Positions 401-24,673 of a DNA stretch of 34,205 nucleotides are shown here, in pieces. The stretch spans positions 1 through 34,205 of the forward strand of contig OUUY01000065.1 in assembly GCA_900302705.1 (NCBI GenBank), written 5' to 3'. Source of the stretch: Candidatus Sulfobium mesophilum. Its GTDB lineage: Bacteria > Nitrospirota > Thermodesulfovibrionia > Thermodesulfovibrionales > UBA6898. A program made the position numbers and the translations under genes. Numbering within the stretch: the first letter of the stretch is position 1; every line of letters starts with the position of its first letter. The notes under the pieces are model-generated. The model searched no databases. It saw only the letters and a list, made by a program, of their open reading frames with translations, and had not been told where the DNA came from.

Positions 401-1241
401 ATCCGTAAAATCCCTCTCCACTCTTTCTGCCTAACCTCCCTGAGGCAACCATCTTTCTCAGAAGCGGACAAGGCCTGAACTTTTCTCCCAGCTCCTCTTC
501 GAGGATGACAAGTATTTCAAGGCAGGTGTCCAGCCCTATGAAGTCTGCAAGTTCCAGTGGGCCCATCGGATGATTGGCCCCAAGTTTCATGACGGTATCG
601 ATGTCCTCCTTTGAAGATATCCCTTCCTGCAGGCAGTATACGGCCTCATTTATCATTGGCATAAGCACGCGGTTGGAAACAAAACCTGGCGAGTCTTGGA
701 CAACAACCGGCGTCTTACCCATTTTCATCGAAACCGCTTTTATGATGCCGGTCGTGGCCTCTGAAGTAGACAGCCCTCTGATAACCTCCACAAGCCGCAT
801 GACATACGCCGGGTTCATAAAATGCATGCCGATAAAACGTTCCGGCCTCCTTGTTGCGCCGGCAAGCCTCGTAATGGAGATTGTCGAAGTATTGCTCGCA
901 AAAATTGTCTCTGACTTAGACAGTCTGTCCAGTTTTCGGAATATATCTCTCTTTATGTCCTCTCTCTCCACAACTGCTTCGACGATAAGATCGGCATTTC
1001 GGCATTCGTCCAGCCGAGATGATATACCGATGCGAGAGAGCGCCTCCTCTTTCTCCTTCAGGCTGATCTTGCCTTCCGCCGCGCGTCTTTCAAGTCTCTC
1101 CCTTATCCTTGAGAATCCCTTCGCCGCAAGTTCCCCCGTGATATCCGCCAGCAGAACATCAAAACCACTCTGGGCAGCTGTCTGAGCTATGCCCCCTCCC
1201 ATGATCCCTGCACCTATCACAGCTATTTTTTTTATCCACAT
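393..1241 (-). CDS. hbd: 3-hydroxybutyryl-CoA (3-hydroxyacyl-CoA) dehydrogenase
   Basis: Oxidises (S)-3-hydroxyacyl-CoA to 3-ketoacyl-CoA with NAD, the third step of beta-oxidation; cytoplasmic. 282 residues, the normal length for the monofunctional enzyme. The N-terminal Rossmann fold carries GAGIMGGGIAQ at about 10-20. The catalytic His140 and Glu152 sit in GMHFMNPAYVMRLVEVIRG, and Asn190 in PGFVSNR. The C-terminal dimerisation domain shows NHPMGPLELADFIGLD. It is third in a minus-strand operon: 28 bases after the acyl-CoA dehydrogenase and overlapping the hydratase by 8 bases. The ribosome-binding site is weak; an AGGAGG lies about 20 bases upstream, so coupling to the upstream gene is likely. 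Whether it prefers C4 or longer chains cannot be read from the sequence. Confidence 0.95.
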   Translation of the reverse strand: MWIKKIAVIGAGIMGGGIAQTAAQSGFDVLLADITGELAAKGFSRIRERLERRAAEGKISLKEKEEALSRIGISSRLDECRNADLIVEAVVEREDIKRDIFRKLDRLSKSETIFASNTSTISITRLAGATRRPERFIGMHFMNPAYVMRLVEVIRGLSTSEATTGIIKAVSMKMGKTPVVVQDSPGFVSNRVLMPMINEAVYCLQEGISSKEDIDTVMKLGANHPMGPLELADFIGLDTCLEILVILEEELGEKFRPCPLLRKMVASGRLGRKSGEGFYGYG

Positions 1242-1269
1242 AGCCTATGCCACGGCTCCCTTCAGCCTC

Positions 1270-2439
1270 CTATTCGTCTTTCAATGCCAGATGCGCTATA
1301 AGAAGTTTCAGCATTTCAGAGGTACCTTCGCCGATCGTCAGAAGCCTTGCGTCCCGCCAGTGCCTGTGAACATCATAAGCATCAGTATAACCATACCCGC
1401 CGTGTATCTGTATCGCATGGTCGCAAACCTTTATGGCCGACTCTGAGGAAAAGAGCTTTGCCTGAGAAGCCGCTAATGCGATGTCTTTGCCTTGATCTTT
1501 AAGGAAGCCGGCGTAGTAGGTCAGAAGTCTCGCTGCGCTTATTTGGGTGGCCATATCAGACAATTTTTCCTGCACGAGCTGAAACTGTGAAATGCTTTCA
1601 CCAAATGCCTTTCTTTTTTTGCTGTAATTAACAGATTTTTCAAAAGCGGCCTGCGCAATGCCCGTACCGATAGCGGCGATAGTTATCCTTCCTACATTCA
1701 GGATATGCTTTGCATATTCCAGTCCCCTGCCCTCTTCCCCGAGCAAGTCTTCCCTGGCAACTTCGCATTCTTCAAGCTGAATGGCGGCCAGTTGGTTCCC
1801 TCTGAATCCAAGTTTGGGCATCGTTTTCATCACCTTGAAACCGTGCTCAGCGGTAGAGACCACAAAGGCTGAAATTCCCCTACGGGTAGCGGCAAATACC
1901 AGGGCATAATCAGATTCACCGGGGTTTGTAATCATCATTTTACTTCCATTGAGGACATATCTGTCGCCCATTTGGACAGCCCTGCTCTGGATCGACTTTG
2001 CGTCAGAACCGCAGCAAGGTTCAGTAAGCGCAAAGGCTATGAGGCTTCTGCCCTCGACAAGACCTTTCTCTTTTAATAGCCTCATCTTCATCCTGTCATC
2101 TCCGAAAAGTCTTATTCCCTCACAGATCATCCCCTGGATGGACACATGCAGGGCCGTATTTGCGCACGCTTTTGCAAGCATCTCCAGAGCAGCGATATAC
2201 ACAGGAAACGGCTTTCCTCCGCCATTGTATTCTTCGGGGAAGGGCAGAGCAAAAAGCCCGCGTTTTGTGGTCTCCACCAGGTTATCTGCCGGAAATATCT
2301 CCTCCTGATCAATGCGCTTTGCGCCGTGCAATATCTCCTCTTCGCAGAATTCACCTATGGAGTTAAGAAGCGAGTGGTATTCCTGTGCCGCAGGATGATA
2401 AATATCGATAATGTTTCTCTGTTCACTCACGTAAAACAT
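1270..2439 (-). CDS. Acyl-CoA dehydrogenase
   Basis: FAD enzyme that introduces the trans-2 double bond into acyl-CoA, passing electrons to ETF (not encoded here). About 389 residues from the ATG at 2439, which directly follows the thiolase TAA; a TTG at 2454 would add five residues and overlap thiolase, so the ATG is preferred, though neither has a clear Shine-Dalgarno. Family landmarks: the FAD/substrate stretch FALTEPCCGSDAKS, the helix IQIHGGYGYT near the C-terminus, and the catalytic-base position IGEGTSEM with Glu at residue 371 (ATG numbering). It lies between thiolase and 3-hydroxyacyl-CoA dehydrogenase in the operon. A second, different acyl-CoA dehydrogenase is transcribed divergently at 3792, so the two probably differ in substrate. 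Confidence 0.94.
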   Translation of the reverse strand: MFYVSEQRNIIDIYHPAAQEYHSLLNSIGEFCEEEILHGAKRIDQEEIFPADNLVETTKRGLFALPFPEEYNGGGKPFPVYIAALEMLAKACANTALHVSIQGMICEGIRLFGDDRMKMRLLKEKGLVEGRSLIAFALTEPCCGSDAKSIQSRAVQMGDRYVLNGSKMMITNPGESDYALVFAATRRGISAFVVSTAEHGFKVMKTMPKLGFRGNQLAAIQLEECEVAREDLLGEEGRGLEYAKHILNVGRITIAAIGTGIAQAAFEKSVNYSKKRKAFGESISQFQLVQEKLSDMATQISAARLLTYYAGFLKDQGKDIALAASQAKLFSSESAIKVCDHAIQIHGGYGYTDAYDVHRHWRDARLLTIGEGTSEMLKLLIAHLALKDE

Positions 2440-17109: not shown

Positions 17110-18591
17110 CTAGGGTTTGACCGAAGCAGAGGGGTCTGTTAGGCTGTGCCCTTTTTTCCCTTTTTTGAAGATGTCGCTTTTTGTCCAGAGCCAAAAGAGA
17201 CTCCTCAGACTCTTGAGGGCCACTGCAAAGTCATGAGGTGTCCTCAGTTCAAGAAGTCTTTTTGCGATAAAGGAAGGTCTTGAATAAAACTTCTTAAAAG
17301 CGATCTGCCGCAGGCGAAGTATTTCTTCCCTCGTCATTGTGTGCGGTATGAAGGCCGCACCCTGATACGTATAATCTGTGAGTTCTTCCGAAATAGAACC
17401 GTACTTTTCCAGGTTGTCATAGAGGTATGTCCCGGGGAAAGGCGTGATAGCATGAAAATTTGCTATGTCGGGATTAAGGTCCAGTGCGAATTCTATAGTC
17501 TGCAGTCCTTCCTCGAAAGTTTCACCGGGGATACCGAACATGAAAGGCGTGCTGACCCTCAGTCCGACCTCTTGTGCAGCCTTTACCGCCTTTCTTATCT
17601 GCCCGGGCGTCGTCCCTTTGCGTATTGTATTGAGGTTCTTCTGAACGCCGCTTTCGGCGCCGAAGAGTATGGCCCAGCAGCCCGCGTCCTTAAATGCCTG
17701 CAAAAGAGGTTTGTCGACCTGATTTACGCATGCAGAGGCAAACCAGGTAAAATCGAGCTTTCGCACCCTGATTTCACGGGCCAGGGTCATCGCCCTGTCG
17801 TAATCAGCTGCCAATGTATCGTCTATGAACTTGATCTCCCTGTAACCACTCTTTAAACAGTGTTCGATCTCCGCAAGGACATTTTCCACGCCACGGAATC
17901 TGACCCCAAGTTTACGGTCTTTATCTATCTGGAAGCAATAAATGCATCGCCTGTTACAGCCCCGCGATGTCATCAGAACCGCAACAGGTTTTCTCCGGTA
18001 TGTTGCAGGCGGGGGTATATACAGTCTGGCGTCTCCCAGGAGCTCCCTTGCAGGAAAAGGAAGGGCATCGAGGTCAGTGATAAGAGGCCTTGGCGGGCTC
18101 TTGACGATTGATCCTTCGGCTCTGAAGACAACTCCCTGCACCCCTTCAAGCCCGTTGCCGTCACTTAGCCTTTCGATCATTTCAAGACACGTATATTCGC
18201 CCTCGCCCGTCACTATCGCATCGAAAAGGTCCCCGGAATCTTCCAGACATTTCTCTTGCACGGCGATTGGGTAAGGCCCTCCGGCACAGATGAACGTGTT
18301 CTTCCCGCATATGGCCCTTAGCTCTGCTGCGGTCTTTTTGGCCTTCTGCCATCCGAAAGTTGTAGAGTAGATGCCGATGAAAGAGGGGCCGAATTCCCGG
18401 GTCTGCCTCATAAGTTCCTCATGGTCCATAAAGGCACCGTTAAGGAATTTCACCTCATGCCCTGCCCTCTGCAACACTGCGGCCACGTAAAGAGTGCCAA
18501 GAGGCTGCCAGTAATTAATCTGTGAACTTGCAGTTTTGGAAGAAAAGATATCTTCCGGCACCCATGACGGAATGACTAAAGCGCATCTCAT
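17110..18591 (-). CDS. B12-binding-domain radical SAM protein
   Basis: Radical S-adenosylmethionine enzyme of the class with an N-terminal cobalamin-binding-like domain. 493 residues. Residues 1-150 form the B12-like Rossmann domain (QPLGTLYVAAVLQRAGHEV, CAGGPYPIA, VTGEGEYTCLEMIE); no canonical DxHxxG base-off motif is seen. The radical SAM core has the cluster CNRRCIYC with Cys212, Cys216 and Cys219, then FIDDTLAAD and PFMFGIPGETFEEGLQTIEF. Its ATG overlaps the stop of the upstream FAD oxidoreductase in an ATGA, so the two are translationally coupled and likely act in one pathway. Members of this class do methylations, ring contractions and C-C bond chemistry on lipids, cofactors or natural products; the substrate here cannot be read. 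Confidence 0.92.
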   Translation of the reverse strand: MRCALVIPSWVPEDIFSSKTASSQINYWQPLGTLYVAAVLQRAGHEVKFLNGAFMDHEELMRQTREFGPSFIGIYSTTFGWQKAKKTAAELRAICGKNTFICAGGPYPIAVQEKCLEDSGDLFDAIVTGEGEYTCLEMIERLSDGNGLEGVQGVVFRAEGSIVKSPPRPLITDLDALPFPARELLGDARLYIPPPATYRRKPVAVLMTSRGCNRRCIYCFQIDKDRKLGVRFRGVENVLAEIEHCLKSGYREIKFIDDTLAADYDRAMTLAREIRVRKLDFTWFASACVNQVDKPLLQAFKDAGCWAILFGAESGVQKNLNTIRKGTTPGQIRKAVKAAQEVGLRVSTPFMFGIPGETFEEGLQTIEFALDLNPDIANFHAITPFPGTYLYDNLEKYGSISEELTDYTYQGAAFIPHTMTREEILRLRQIAFKKFYSRPSFIAKRLLELRTPHDFAVALKSLRSLFWLWTKSDIFKKGKKGHSLTDPSASVKP

Positions 18592-20012
18592 TTTTCTTCC
18601 CCTGCAAAAACAAGCCTTCCGTCATCGTCTCTCTCCGCCTCAAAATCACGGCTTTTCCCGATAATCTTCTCCGCCGTAGTAATGCCGGATTCTATTGCGT
18701 GGTCCATGTTGTAATACCTGAACATACCCGCCCTTCCGGCTATATGGAGATTTTCGAAGCGGCCCAGATAATCATAAAGTTCATCACACAGTTGGCTGTA
18801 GCCGACTTCAAAGAGAGGATATGCCTTAGCCGCTCTGACCACGGCGCTGCCTATTACTTCATGGGGGCTGATAAAGCCCAGGCGGGCCATGTTCTTAGCA
18901 GCGATTGTCGTGAGCGTCAAGTCGTTGGCATTCCATATCGCGTCTCCCTTAAAACTGAAGAACTCCGTCACAAGGATCGTTTTCCCTTCGGGCGCCATCT
19001 GCTCACTCCAGTTCGTCGGCTCATGGATCCTGCCAAAGGGGATACGCCGCTCCGGTATGTATATCCAGGTCTGATCGGTAACCCTCCGTCTGTCTATCAT
19101 GAGAGCGACAACGACAAGGTCCCTGAATTTGAGTTTGGAGGCCGCATCGAGCACATGCCTTGGAGGTGCAGGGTCCAGCATTCGTATCAGACTAGTCAAC
19201 GGCAGGCTGGAGACAAATTCACTACCGCAGCGCACGGCGGCGCCGTTACGGCTTATCAGATCGGCCCTTTCTATCCGGAAGCCTGAATGATGAAGACGCT
19301 CAACCCTTGTACCGGTTCGAACGTCGCCCCTCTTTTCTATCTCCTCCTTCAGCCTCTCAGATATCCGGCCGATCCCCAGTCTTGGATATACGAACTTGTC
19401 AGCGAGGGTCGGAAGGTCTTTTCCACTAAATCTGAAAAATGCGTTCTTAACTGCCGTTGCCAAAGAAAGCCCTTTGATCCGCTGGGCTACCCACTCGGCG
19501 CTTATCCTGCTGCAGTCGATGCCCCAGACCTTCTCGCTGTATTCCTTGAAATAGATATTGAACATTGTCCTGCCGAAATTATTCACAACCCAGTCCTCAA
19601 GAGAAACGTTATCAGCCGTCTTTATCAAACCTCTGATTTTTTCCACGCCGTAATCCGCCATTATCCTGCATGTCACCGGGATGCCCAGGCCGAACATTGC
19701 ATTGATAGGTTTTAGCGGGTAATCAAAATATTTATTGCGGAGGTATATCTTGCTCGTGCGGCTGACAGATATCAGTTCCTCTCCCATGAGACCCTTTACA
19801 AACGAATCGATACGTCTGTCTTTCGTGAAGAACCTGTGTCCGCCGATATCAAAACGAAAACCGTCCTTCTCGATCGTCTTTGAAAGTCCCCCTACATGAG
19901 ACTCACATTCGAATACTTCAACTCTGCGGCCGGCCCTCGTCAAAACGCATCCGGCGGATAGGCCTGTGAGGCCTCCCCCTAAAATCATTATGTCATTTGA
20001 CGGGCTATTCAT
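18588..20012 (-). CDS. FAD-dependent oxidoreductase (amine oxidase / UDP-galactopyranose mutase-like)
   Basis: Flavoprotein of 474 residues with the FAD dinucleotide-binding fingerprint at the N-terminus (MILGGGLTGLSAGCVL, then a Glu at the end of the second strand and HVGGLSKT). The segment GFRFDIGGHRFFTKDRRIDS and the tract YFDYPLKPINAM are characteristic of a group of oxidoreductases related to protoporphyrinogen/phytoene oxidases and UDP-galactopyranose mutase; the C-terminus carries the FAD-contacting stretch LHIAGRAGMFRYYNMDHAIE. GGGGAAAAG before the ATG marks the start. It is the first gene of a two-gene unit with the B12 radical SAM enzyme (4-base overlap). A role in glycan or lipid modification is possible, but the reaction is not determined. 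Confidence 0.9.
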   Translation of the reverse strand: MNSPSNDIMILGGGLTGLSAGCVLTRAGRRVEVFECESHVGGLSKTIEKDGFRFDIGGHRFFTKDRRIDSFVKGLMGEELISVSRTSKIYLRNKYFDYPLKPINAMFGLGIPVTCRIMADYGVEKIRGLIKTADNVSLEDWVVNNFGRTMFNIYFKEYSEKVWGIDCSRISAEWVAQRIKGLSLATAVKNAFFRFSGKDLPTLADKFVYPRLGIGRISERLKEEIEKRGDVRTGTRVERLHHSGFRIERADLISRNGAAVRCGSEFVSSLPLTSLIRMLDPAPPRHVLDAASKLKFRDLVVVALMIDRRRVTDQTWIYIPERRIPFGRIHEPTNWSEQMAPEGKTILVTEFFSFKGDAIWNANDLTLTTIAAKNMARLGFISPHEVIGSAVVRAAKAYPLFEVGYSQLCDELYDYLGRFENLHIAGRAGMFRYYNMDHAIESGITTAEKIIGKSRDFEAERDDDGRLVFAGEEK

Positions 20013-20202: not shown

Positions 20203-20667
20203 CTATTTCACGATCATTACCGGGATATCTGCAGTGTTGGCCACTTCCCTGCTGACACTACCCATGAAAAGGTGACTCATCCTGCTGCCCCTTGACCCCA
20301 CGATAATCAGGTCCGATCCTTCCTCCTTTGCCGCAGCAAGAATCTCTTCTGCAGGGTGGCCTCTTCTTATTATGGTTTTAACACTTGTCAGGCCGCTGTC
20401 TTCCAGCAGTTTCTTGTAGTACTCCACGATCGCCTGCGCCTTTTTGTCCAGCGCTTCCTGATATTCGGTCCCTTCCAATGCTTCCTTCAGGGTTTTCATC
20501 TCGGAGACGCTCAACAACTGATCGTCCATCAGAGACCTGCCCTCCAGTTTCTCCACGTACACTAAAGAAATTGACTCGGGCTCTATACACAGACATGCCT
20601 TCGTGCACATGTCAAAAGCCTTTCTTGTTCCCTTCGTGTCATCCACCGCAATGAGCACTTTTTTCAT
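20203..20667 (-). CDS. Universal stress protein, UspA family
   Basis: Single-domain universal stress protein, 154 residues, cytoplasmic. It begins MKKVLIAVDDTKGTRKAFDM, with the Asp at the nucleotide-binding strand end, and ends with the ATP-binding signature GSRGSRMSHLFMGSVSREV and DIPVMIVK. The loop between the second Gly and the following Gly-Ser is eight residues, one shorter than the usual nine, so ATP binding is likely but not certain. The ATG overlaps the TGA of the 55-residue membrane peptide gene in an ATGA, and the gene is last in the operon with the YeeE/YedE transporter and TusA-like protein. This suggests a stress or energy-state function linked to sulfur uptake. The hairpin at 20138-20171 follows. 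Confidence 0.93.
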   Translation of the reverse strand: MKKVLIAVDDTKGTRKAFDMCTKACLCIEPESISLVYVEKLEGRSLMDDQLLSVSEMKTLKEALEGTEYQEALDKKAQAIVEYYKKLLEDSGLTSVKTIIRRGHPAEEILAAAKEEGSDLIIVGSRGSRMSHLFMGSVSREVANTADIPVMIVK

Positions 20668-20831
20668 TTTGCACCCGTTGCATGAGCAGGCGCCGCACCA
20701 CCCTGTGCAGGAGCCTCAGCCGCAATGCCCTGCTGAGCCTGGGTGGTCGCATCACGTTGCTGACTATAGAACACGAGGAAACCAAGAATTCCGACAACGA
20801 TAGCGATAACTATCACAAGCGGCGTCTTCAT
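20664..20831 (-). CDS. Small single-pass membrane protein (55 residues)
   Basis: Unrecognised small protein, too short for many gene finders. The ATG at 20831 has an excellent AAAGGAGGG six bases upstream. The sequence begins MKTPLVIVIAIVVGILGFLV, a membrane segment at about 4-21 with little N-terminal tail, followed by YSQQRDATT and a low-complexity tail rich in Ala, Gln, Gly and Pro. Its TGA overlaps the uspA ATG (ATGA). It lies 30 bases after the TusA-like gene. The good ribosome-binding site, the coupling and the coherent hydrophobic segment argue for a real gene. It may be a small anchor or partner of the sulfur transporter; that role is inference. Confidence 0.8.
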   Translation of the reverse strand: MKTPLVIVIAIVVGILGFLVFYSQQRDATTQAQQGIAAEAPAQGGAAPAHATGAK

Positions 20832-20861
20832 GTTGCCCTCCTTTGTATATCGGGGTAAAAA

Positions 20862-22933: not shown

Positions 22934-24673
22934 CTAATTTGCCTTGAAACCCGGCATTGCATCACCGGCTATCCGTCGGAATACCCTTACGCTAGTCCTG
23001 TACTGGAATATCCCGTCATATTTGTCGAAGACCGCTATCTGGCTGTAGCCCGCCATACGTTGCCGGATCTCAGAAGGGATTGGATCTTTCGCGCTCTCCG
23101 AGACTATGACCAGAACATTGTCTTCACTTGTATGACTCCCGCCATTGTAATAAGAAGGGACTCTCAGCTCAAGCGTAAATCTTAATGACGAATTCTGGAT
23201 CCTCTCCCGCTCCCCTTCGCTAAGCACAGCGACATTGTTATAAATAATTCTTTTTTGCGTAAACAGATCTAGCAGTGGTACCGAAACCCAGGGATCCACT
23301 ACAGGTTCCGCAGGTACGAGAGCAAACACCTCGGCGTTTCGTTCAGGGAGGGTATCCAGGAACCGACCGGCCTCCTTGAGATTCACTGCGCTCATTTTTT
23401 GCATAAAAGGCAGATACGCAAAGAGTGCGACGGCAAGGGAGGAGGTAATTATGCAGCCCAGAAGAAATTTCTTTAAGTAAGCATTTTCCATTCTGCTCAT
23501 CCCATATGCAGCCGCCAGTGACAACATAGGCAAAACCATTATGATATACCGCGTCCTCCTGATCTCCAATAGAAAAACCAGGGCTATTAACCAGGCCACT
23601 ATCATATACTTAAGGTTCTTCTTTCTCACAGCCGAGTAAATCGAATACAATGCGGCAGCGCTGATTAAGGGATGTATCTGGAAAAAAAATATTGAAATAA
23701 AACTTTCTCCCCAGCGATTCAGACCAGGCTTCTGATAGGCCATAAGGATTTTCACCTGATCAGAAATCACGCTCAACTCCTTTGACACCGCGAGTCCGAT
23801 AAACAGCGCCGAAAGCCCAATGATATATGACGTCTTCAAAAAAAGAGCAGTCGTCTTCCCCGTCTCTGCCCCTTTTAAACGTTCCTGTGTAAAATTAACG
23901 ACGACTATTACCGGCAAGACAGAAAGCATAAGCCAGGTCGAGTACTTGGAGAAGAAGGCGAGGAATATAGCAAAAGCCGAGACAACCACCATGGTGCCTC
24001 CCTTATCGAGCGCCTTCATGAACATCAGGACCGCCAAGAGGAAAAAGAACATTGTGGGAATATCAACGAGCATGAGAGGTACCTGAGAGTAAAGATAAGG
24101 CATGCCAAGAAGAAGCGCTCCCCCATAAAATCCGACTTCCTCGTCCCACAAGTGCTTGCCTATAAGATACGTAATCACCGCGCTGAGAGAAAAAAGCATC
24201 GTATTGAAAATCTGCGTATATACCCTGACCTCACCAAAAATACGGAAGACTAAACCGTAGAAAAAAGGGACAAGAGGCATATCCGTCCAGGCGGGAATGA
24301 CTTTACCCCACTGATCAAAGAAATATCTCACACCGTATAACTCAAGATATTTTGCCTGGGTGAAATATCTCGATGCATCTGCAATCGCCTCCGGCTCAGA
24401 CCAGAAAAGTGATGCCGATGCAGACGACATCACAAAAAGGAAAGGGGCCGCGTTTTTGCCTCGTAAAGTGACCTTTGAAAGGAAATGCGAAAGAATGCAT
24501 CCGGCAGAGATCGCAATAAAAACATCCCAAAAAACGCCAGGCTGAAAACACCATTGCCAGCTTGAAAGCCTGTTGTCATCAAGGTTTCTTGCAAGATAAA
24601 GGATAGAATATGTCAGCAGTGTAAAGAAGGCTACGGCGAGGATGCCCGATATTCGCTTTTTATCACCGCTCAT
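22934..24673 (-). CDS. Membrane glycosyltransferase, ArnT/PMT (GT39/GT83-like)
   Basis: Integral-membrane glycosyltransferase of 579 residues that uses a polyprenyl-phosphate sugar donor, by analogy with its family. Ten or so membrane helices are visible (for example ISGILAVAFFTLLTYSILYL near the N-terminus). The family features are the first periplasmic loop with DASRYFTQAKYLELYG, containing an Asp in the catalytic position, and the segment YGGALLLGMPYLYSQVPLMLVDI followed by further helices; the C-terminal 180 residues form a soluble domain. The ATG at 24673 has no clear Shine-Dalgarno. It sits between two sulfur-relay gene groups, with heptosyltransferase genes about 0.9 kb upstream, so a role in lipopolysaccharide or protein glycosylation is inferred. 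A 7-bp inverted repeat overlaps its stop codon (22910-22937). Confidence 0.85.
   Translation of the reverse strand: MSGDKKRISGILAVAFFTLLTYSILYLARNLDDNRLSSWQWCFQPGVFWDVFIAISAGCILSHFLSKVTLRGKNAAPFLFVMSSASASLFWSEPEAIADASRYFTQAKYLELYGVRYFFDQWGKVIPAWTDMPLVPFFYGLVFRIFGEVRVYTQIFNTMLFSLSAVITYLIGKHLWDEEVGFYGGALLLGMPYLYSQVPLMLVDIPTMFFFLLAVLMFMKALDKGGTMVVVSAFAIFLAFFSKYSTWLMLSVLPVIVVVNFTQERLKGAETGKTTALFLKTSYIIGLSALFIGLAVSKELSVISDQVKILMAYQKPGLNRWGESFISIFFFQIHPLISAAALYSIYSAVRKKNLKYMIVAWLIALVFLLEIRRTRYIIMVLPMLSLAAAYGMSRMENAYLKKFLLGCIITSSLAVALFAYLPFMQKMSAVNLKEAGRFLDTLPERNAEVFALVPAEPVVDPWVSVPLLDLFTQKRIIYNNVAVLSEGERERIQNSSLRFTLELRVPSYYNGGSHTSEDNVLVIVSESAKDPIPSEIRQRMAGYSQIAVFDKYDGIFQYRTSVRVFRRIAGDAMPGFKAN

Follow-up and report, generated by a model that had tools for sequence, protein, structure and literature searches.

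A small single-helix membrane protein encoded after tusA in a sulfur-import operon of Candidatus Sulfobium mesophilum, and its GGYG-tailed relatives

In this study, a gene encoding a 55-residue membrane protein, orf55, was identified in a sulfur operon of Candidatus Sulfobium mesophilum, on a DNA stretch of 34,205 nucleotides (contig OUUY01000065.1) referred to below as the window. The gene is real, its relatives are conserved in position after tusA, and they are linked to yedE-tusA. Searches of Pfam and NCBIfam returned no model at cut-off for orf55 (best Pfam match FxsA, 14.4 vs 25.2; best NCBIfam match 14.3 vs 37), for which the initial annotation had also named no family. The non-fused relatives likewise gave nothing over cut-off (nine searched against Pfam and five against NCBIfam; nearest Prion_octapep in L013, 28.1 vs 32), and no description of a small membrane or GGYG protein in a yedE-tusA operon was found in the open-licence PMC literature. 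The family is therefore called new, and orf55 is a repeat-less member of a new accessory family in a known kind of sulfur-import operon. The explanation that we tentatively prefer, at rather less than an even chance, is that orf55 assists YedE/TusA sulfur import from outside the cytoplasm as a membrane-anchored accessory, with a tail brush that would hold sulfane sulfur. Family libraries can miss a small low-complexity protein of this type that recurs across a phylum.

The orf55 product, MKTPLVIVIAIVVGILGFLVFYSQQRDATTQAQQGIAAEAPAQGGAAPAHATGAK, is read from an ATG start through 55 codons to TGA on the minus strand (20831-20664). Upstream of the start the order is AAAGGAGGG-CAAC-ATG, which places the Shine-Dalgarno-like AAAGGAGGG 4 bases 5' of the ATG. 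The 17-residue Kyte-Doolittle mean reached 3.35 and marked a single hydrophobic helix at residues of about 5-23, with about 4 residues N-terminal to it; AlphaFold2 modelled one helix over residues 2-39, followed by a low-confidence tail. The single membrane helix that had been proposed from the sequence was confirmed. The Ala/Gln/Pro-rich tail was also as described, with no Tyr and 0 GYG, but it is the odd one out in a family where Gly/Ala/Tyr/Pro-rich GGYG repeats make up most tails. A frameshifted GGYG stretch was considered as its origin and rejected, as no GYG-like frame was seen by eye in the window DNA. The ATGA overlap with uspA, which the initial annotation had taken as further evidence of a gene, is present at 20664-20667 but is nearly unique to the window genome: among 64 measurable named loci only L097 has a 4-nt overlap, 59 have spacers of 10-140 nt between the small ORF and uspA, and 4 have spacers of 251-556 nt.

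On the minus strand the genes run in the order dsrE-like gene, 56-aa gene, PMT_2 gene, yedE, tusA, orf55, uspA, FAD enzyme and radical SAM gene (Table 1). Neighbours matching Sulf_transp (PF04143), TusA (PF01206) and Usp (PF00582) confirm the assignment of orf55 to a sulfur operon. A terminator-like hairpin was found on the minus strand at 24716-24688, between the 56-aa and PMT genes, and a scan of the minus strand from yedE to uspA outside coding sequence found none, with terminator-like sites being hardly commoner than in shuffled sequences (8 found vs a mean of 6.3). Between 17110 and 28175 of the window, the sulfur genes stand amid glycan genes (PMT, heptosyltransferases, a GmhB-like domain, and the FAD and radical SAM enzymes).

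Table 1. Coordinates of orf55, its operon neighbours and GYG-tailed lipoproteins at related loci (window positions, or offsets at the named loci)
Feature	Position	Strand	Basis
orf55, 55-residue single-TM protein with short Ala/Gln/Pro tail	20664..20831	(-)	ORF reading, selection, alignment A2, AlphaFold2
Shine-Dalgarno-like AAAGGAGGG of orf55	20836..20844	(-)	read directly
ATGA overlap, orf55 stop / uspA start	20664..20667	(-)	read directly; rare in relatives
orf55 hydrophobic helix codons, about residues 5-23	20763..20819	(-)	hydropathy; AlphaFold2
orf55 tail codons, residues 36-55 (IAAEAPAQGGAAPAHATGAK), without GYG	20667..20726	(-)	sequence, alignment A2
uspA, universal stress protein, 154 aa	20203..20667	(-)	PF00582, 86.5 bits vs cut-off 24
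tusA-like sulfur carrier, 83 aa	20862..21113	(-)	PF01206, 71.1 bits vs cut-off 28.6
yedE-like sulfur transporter, 476 aa	21218..22648	(-)	PF04143, 137.6 bits vs cut-off 27
PMT_2 glycosyltransferase-like membrane protein	22934..24673	(-)	PF13231, 37.6 bits vs cut-off 26.1
FAD-dependent oxidoreductase, PRK07208 type	18588..20012	(-)	NF005548, 461.9 bits vs cut-off 389
B12-binding-type radical SAM protein	17110..18591	(-)	best NCBIfam HpnJ, below its cut-off
DsrE-like protein, 100 aa	25041..25343	(-)	PF02635, 21.2 bits, just below cut-off 22.7
Short conserved protein, 56 aa	24831..25001	(-)	homologues in 20/80 loci
GYG-tailed lipoproteins after tusA	L120 +905, +1145; L110 +1436; L117 +811		
GYG-tailed lipoproteins after tusA	L068, L070, L079, L084 near +1000		

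Conservation was followed at two scales. A search for tusA orthologues in 61 genomes (the window genome and 60 relatives; E at most 1e-20) recovered 24 genomes, and in the relatives' loci L005-L027 (n=23) tusA is followed throughout by one small TM ORF or by two, or, in L012, by a longer protein to which the start of the small ORF is fused. In a scan of named genomes 214 tusA matches were confirmed, and locus counts use the best 80 of these. Of the best 80, 77 carry a related TM ORF after tusA, so that the check proposed by the initial annotation, a small ORF between tusA and uspA in related genomes, bore out the gene; L102 and L130 are counted among the 77 by eye. These 77 comprise 60 single GGYG-type, 2 rhodanese-fused and 15 tandem-type loci. 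In the same best 80 of 214, yedE was found in every one. The phylum labels are mostly Nitrospirota, the rest being Proteobacteria, Desulfobulbaceae/Deltaproteobacteria or Actinomycetota, and PMT, yedE, tusA, the small ORF and the FAD gene co-occur repeatedly under several of these labels. No small TM ORF was found after tusA in L107, L123 and L128 (3/80), where dsrE and its partners follow tusA directly in the YTD order; no PMT gene, FAD gene or uspA was found in these three stretches. Where enough flank was available, conserved neighbours were the PMT gene (47/68 loci), the FAD gene (53/68) and the radical SAM gene (56/65), and uspA lay within 1.3 kb in 60 of the 75 loci with enough downstream sequence. 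In the plasmid collection only distant TusA relatives were found, with 31.6-36.2% identity (best 5 of 8).

A profile from alignment A2, which holds 33 sequences including that of the window, found orf55 at E 3.4e-13 and matched 20 of the 61 genomes, all within the 24 with a tusA orthologue, and none of the 37 without one; several A2 sequences come from the searched genomes, so that the positives are partly circular and the 0/37 negatives are not. The four tusA genomes missed by A2 (G009, G017, G024 and G054) all have the tandem form. Among 198 genomes of the phylum A2 matched 29, namely 28 of the 34 with tusA and 1 of the 164 others; in this exception, G119, the match sits at a contig start. 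Genes for dsrA scored above cut-off in 54 of the 61 genomes, the window genome included, and the presence of dsr therefore does not tell genomes that have the locus from those that lack it.

The reading frame of orf55 is under purifying selection. Over the first 35 codons, comparison of the window gene with 16 relatives gave pS of 0.59-0.85 and pN of 0.13-0.49, with pN below pS in 16/16, where L054 was kept with one codon out of register through an extra Met, which inflates its pN. In six relatives pN/pS was 0.21-0.30 in frame and 0.83-2.88 in the two other frames; for the same-genus relatives (n=2) it was 0.21 in frame and >1 in the other frames. The absence of a start codon or of frame conservation in relatives had been named as evidence against the gene, and the frame was found to be constrained. 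This constraint and the 77/80 conservation rule out a chance ORF; together with the ATG and the Shine-Dalgarno sequence, they establish orf55 as a real gene.

Two forms of the family were distinguished. In the first, to which most Nitrospirota-labelled loci belong, a single protein is encoded. Statistics on length and tail were drawn from 56 complete, unmasked single-type members (4 of the 60 being masked or cut at a contig end), which are 65-159 aa long (median 95.5) and carry a median of 7 GYG (range 1-15) beyond the helix; from position 36 onward their composition is 38.9% Gly, 20.6% Ala, 11.1% Tyr and 8.7% Pro. The second form consists mostly of two short TM proteins in tandem, which show PPF- and PGYFEAVEAAGYGGG-type sequences and have an acidic C-terminus; in the loci of this form (n=15) the proteins have at most one or two GYG/SYG motifs. 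In A2, Y22 is invariant and F18 and S23 are nearly so. Family members are recognised by a position directly after tusA, an MK(T/A/N)-like start, a single helix that ends in YS, a Shine-Dalgarno sequence and at least one GYG in the tail. All of these but the last were found in orf55, which retains the helix and its YS end and has 0 GYG, vs 3 in both same-genus relatives (L053 and L064); it is therefore classed as a divergent relative without repeats, assigned to the family only through its position and helix. Pfam matches to the prion octapeptide (two relatives) and DUF3432 (one) lay below cut-off and are read as compositional. In the fused L012 copy, only the rhodanese part scores above a cut-off, and the PDB search with A2 gave a single weak fimbrial match (E 0.062). 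A tail-only profile, A4, matched 5 of the 61 genomes and misses other repeat spacings.

Several lines of sequence evidence suggest that the tail is probably periplasmic. The net flanking charge of 86 distinct ORFs favours an N-in/C-out orientation in 60 and is tied in 18; the 8 ORFs with the opposite balance count against a periplasmic tail. A simple pattern picked out 8 GYG-tailed lipobox proteins in the downstream parts of 7 of the 80 loci, and two more were found elsewhere in G034 and G005 (L142 and L146); signal peptides and lipoboxes throughout were assigned by eye or by pattern. Rhodanese fusions of the TM-GGYG part occur at the tusA loci L080 (= L012) and L097 and also at L143 (PF00581, 94.7, 80.1 and 82.4 bits, respectively; cut-off 22.2), and the fused domains share 35-37% identity over about 300 aa with the L147 rhodanese, which has a signal-peptide-like start. 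At L122 and L127, labelled Betaproteobacteria, a homologue of the L147 rhodanese follows the small ORF, and by eye the start of the L122 homologue resembles a signal peptide. The L143 fusion (G055 C84, 1852-3105, plus strand) lies away from the tusA locus, next to genes for a DsrE-like protein (PF13686), a regulator of ArsR type and a Pyr_redox_2 flavoprotein, the last read by eye as SQR-like. The rhodanese fusions and these neighbours support a sulfur role outside the cytoplasm. On strong indications, then, the tail would be placed on the periplasmic side, whereas sulfur handling, contact with YedE and a role for UspA are put forward here as suggestions.

The operon can be compared with known systems of sulfur transfer. 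According to excerpts of four papers (PMC12998232, PMC13293266, PMC9751629, PMC8780430), the YTD or DsrEFH type II cluster consists of yedE, tusA, dsrE and 2-3 conserved hypotheticals, which excerpts of one of them identify as DsrEFH type II subunits (PMC13293266), and the same type of YedE and TusA pairing occurs there in Nitrospirota and Desulfobacterota. In the window yedE likewise stands beside tusA, both over their Pfam cut-offs. Upstream of yedE come the DsrE-like gene, just below its Pfam cut-off, and a single short conserved gene; the PMT gene sits between this pair and yedE. Homologues of the DsrE-like gene occur upstream of yedE in 23 of the 80 loci. The 56-aa protein, with no Pfam match at E 0.1, is probably one of the YTD conserved hypotheticals. 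Of the three DsrEFH type II-like genes that would be expected, two were recognised between 24831 and 25343, the second encoding only 56 aa, and the listed ORFs of the window yielded no third subunit. It was considered whether orf55 itself is a YTD hypothetical or DsrEFH type II subunit, and this was rejected: it is a single-helix membrane protein with a disordered tail and no DsrE-family match, and the YTD hypotheticals are separate genes. The excerpts consulted of the YTD and DsrEFH type II papers do not mention the small membrane protein described here.

The pairing also resembles TsuA/TsuB (YeeE/YeeD) of Escherichia coli in that a YeeE/YedE-family transporter stands beside a TusA-like partner; the window YedE, however, scores 107.8 vs a cut-off of 400 with the TsuA model NF052577, and the window TusA 29.9 vs 147.5 with the YeeD model NF041048. 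TsuA/TsuB serves thiosulfate uptake, the YedE-family protein importing sulfur species and the TusA-type partner taking over in the cytoplasm, and the E. coli pair is not known to include a small GGYG protein. SoxT is described as a further case of YedE-family sulfur import with a TusA-type partner (PMC11582611). With periplasmic rhodaneses or thiosulfate sulfurtransferases the family shares three relatives that are TM-GGYG-rhodanese fusions, whereas orf55 has no rhodanese domain. A further likeness is to the sulfur globule proteins, of which SgpA and SgpB have a Gly/Tyr-rich composition; this repeat feature is absent from the tail of orf55 and present in its relatives. In an excerpt on Allochromatium vinosum, SgpA-D are extracytoplasmic, somewhat repetitive and tied to stored sulfur, and SgpA-C are described as extremely hydrophobic (PMC10386293). 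Sgps carry signal peptides and coat globules, whereas the GGYG family appears to keep a membrane anchor, and the helix of orf55 is read as uncleaved; the likeness rests on descriptions, with no globule known for the GGYG family.

We propose the following mechanism. As a small bitopic inner-membrane protein, orf55 would have its N-terminus in the cytoplasm and its tail in the periplasm, and in most relatives the Gly/Tyr-rich GGYG tail would form a flexible membrane-attached brush round the periplasmic mouth of YedE. The brush would keep sulfane sulfur (polysulfide, elemental sulfur or sulfur bound to a periplasmic sulfurtransferase), or such a sulfurtransferase itself, near the importer, and YedE would hand the sulfur to TusA in the cytoplasm, where UspA, from the same operon, might act as a regulator of the YedE/TusA system. 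A universal stress protein is listed, in an excerpt on Desulfolithobacter, among the top proteins exclusive to thiosulfate disproportionation (PMC9751629) and may be a candidate counterpart of the operon uspA. Cysteine is present in 11 of 86 sequences, and since most members have none, covalent persulfide binding by the tail is unlikely. In the window genome, with the repeat lost, orf55 would act mainly through its TM helix, or its function may be fading. The lack of GYG in orf55 counts against the brush, as tail and YedE should matter here too; a repeat brush also fits poorly with the short TM proteins of the tandem type, with their acidic end and few GYG/SYG motifs. The conserved PMT, FAD and radical SAM neighbours are not explained by sulfur import, but their products could be tail modifiers. 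Under a broader version, which we hold to be unlikely, the GGYG repeat would be a portable extracytoplasmic tail common to membrane anchors, lipoproteins, rhodaneses and a multihaem cytochrome, and the membrane-bound Gly/Tyr mesh would gather sulfur enzymes as well as sulfane sulfur at YedE; if true, it would amount to a sulfur-globule-like coat without a globule, and to an unrecognised first step in the entry of elemental sulfur or polysulfide in sulfur-metabolising Nitrospirota and relatives. For the route of insoluble or polymeric sulfur to the cytoplasmic Dsr machinery, the conserved and probably extracytoplasmic small protein is a concrete candidate. Being encoded with yedE and tusA, and sometimes fused to rhodanese, the candidate can be deleted, tagged and purified.

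Other explanations were weighed against this accessory role. Other transporters have small single-helix subunits, and orf55 could be such a subunit or regulator of YedE acting through its helix, with the tail a non-specific, losable periplasmic extension. This is rather doubtful. In its favour, outside the repeats the helix and its end are best conserved (Y22, F18, S23), the window copy has lost the repeats with its helix still under selection, relatives vary widely in length and GYG number, and yedE accompanies all 80 loci. However, tandem GGYG is kept in most single-type relatives and recurs on lipoproteins, rhodanese fusions and a cytochrome, which suggests that the tail has its own use, and a GYG-tailed lipoprotein has no TM helix at all. 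The frequent PMT, FAD and radical SAM genes would be accounted for if the periplasmic Gly/Tyr/Ser-rich tail served chiefly as a structural protein of the envelope, on which the PMT-type glycosyltransferase and its FAD and radical SAM neighbours act. Heptosyltransferase genes adjoin the window locus, and PMT is present in 11 of the 15 loci without uspA within 1.3 kb, all 11 of which have the small ORF. We nevertheless regard this as quite unlikely: LPS and glycan regions often contain such genes, whose proximity may therefore be incidental, and the small ORF is present in 18 of the 21 loci without PMT, the other three being L107, L123 and L128.

The window copy alone invites the reading of a decaying remnant whose family function disappeared along with the repeats: its 55 aa fall below the minimum of 65 of complete single-type members, it has no GYG where both same-genus relatives have 3 and the 56 members a median of 7, and its spacer to uspA is gone too. 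An intact frame, Shine-Dalgarno sequence and helix, and purifying selection on the first 35 codons against the two same-genus relatives, make such decay improbable. The missing repeats may also reflect assembly collapse, in which case at least one repeat unit would be expected to remain. The initial annotation had suggested an anchor linking a sulfur carrier or transporter to a stress protein, that is, a cytoplasmic-side protein joining TusA (or YedE) to UspA, in keeping with the place of orf55 between tusA and uspA and with the ATGA overlap in the window. TusA and UspA are taken as cytoplasmic, no export signal having been noticed in their sequences; a probably periplasmic tail thus argues against a link between them, and charge balance, lipoprotein paralogues and fusions all put the tail outside. 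Moreover, 12 of the 15 loci without uspA found within 1.3 kb retain the small ORF, and the overlap is not conserved. Some tie to uspA survives in G012, where no uspA was seen at the tusA locus and where, at a second locus, an ORF of GGYG repeats, in part masked as N, precedes uspA and the FAD gene; in the 3 kb of this second locus no further yedE-sized ORF was seen, and the best 4 of 5 tusA-like matches lie elsewhere. An anchor between carrier and stress protein is highly improbable, while the transporter-linked part of the suggestion stands with yedE in 80/80 loci.

Further GGYG sequences were noted at and away from the operon. At L120 two GYG-tailed lipoproteins stand in tandem directly after uspA. 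At L142 (G034 C1) a GGYG lipoprotein (2120-2356, minus strand) lies near a sigma-54-type regulator (PF00158), with a UspA-like gene nearby on the opposite strand. In G012, L145 (C1, about 272.0 kb; 1217-1615, plus strand) encodes a c7-type cytochrome with three CXXCH, that is, a 3-haem protein, whose tail GGYGAPAGGYGAPAGGYGKY has GGYGAPA as in the tusA-linked membrane proteins; the GGYGAPA tail thus seems portable. Exported-looking proteins of different architecture with short GGYG runs were seen at L186 (G022), L216 (G029) and L217 (G028), and since these have no evident sulfur link, GGYG alone is no marker of the system. In-frame GGYG DNA patterns were found in 4, 3 and 6 of 61 genomes and their reversed controls in 0, 4 and 1 of 61; the other exported GGYG proteins and the control found in 4/61 for a pattern found in 3/61 make repeats alone weak evidence. 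In two members, L038 and L055, a further hydrophobic stretch lies at the C-terminus and closes with basic residues; on our reading it would give a hairpin whose GYG part lies outside. At L060 (988-1344, plus strand) the repeat coding seems to slip frame midway and to continue as an Arg/Cys-rich repeat, possibly through contingency-type slippage or a sequencing error.
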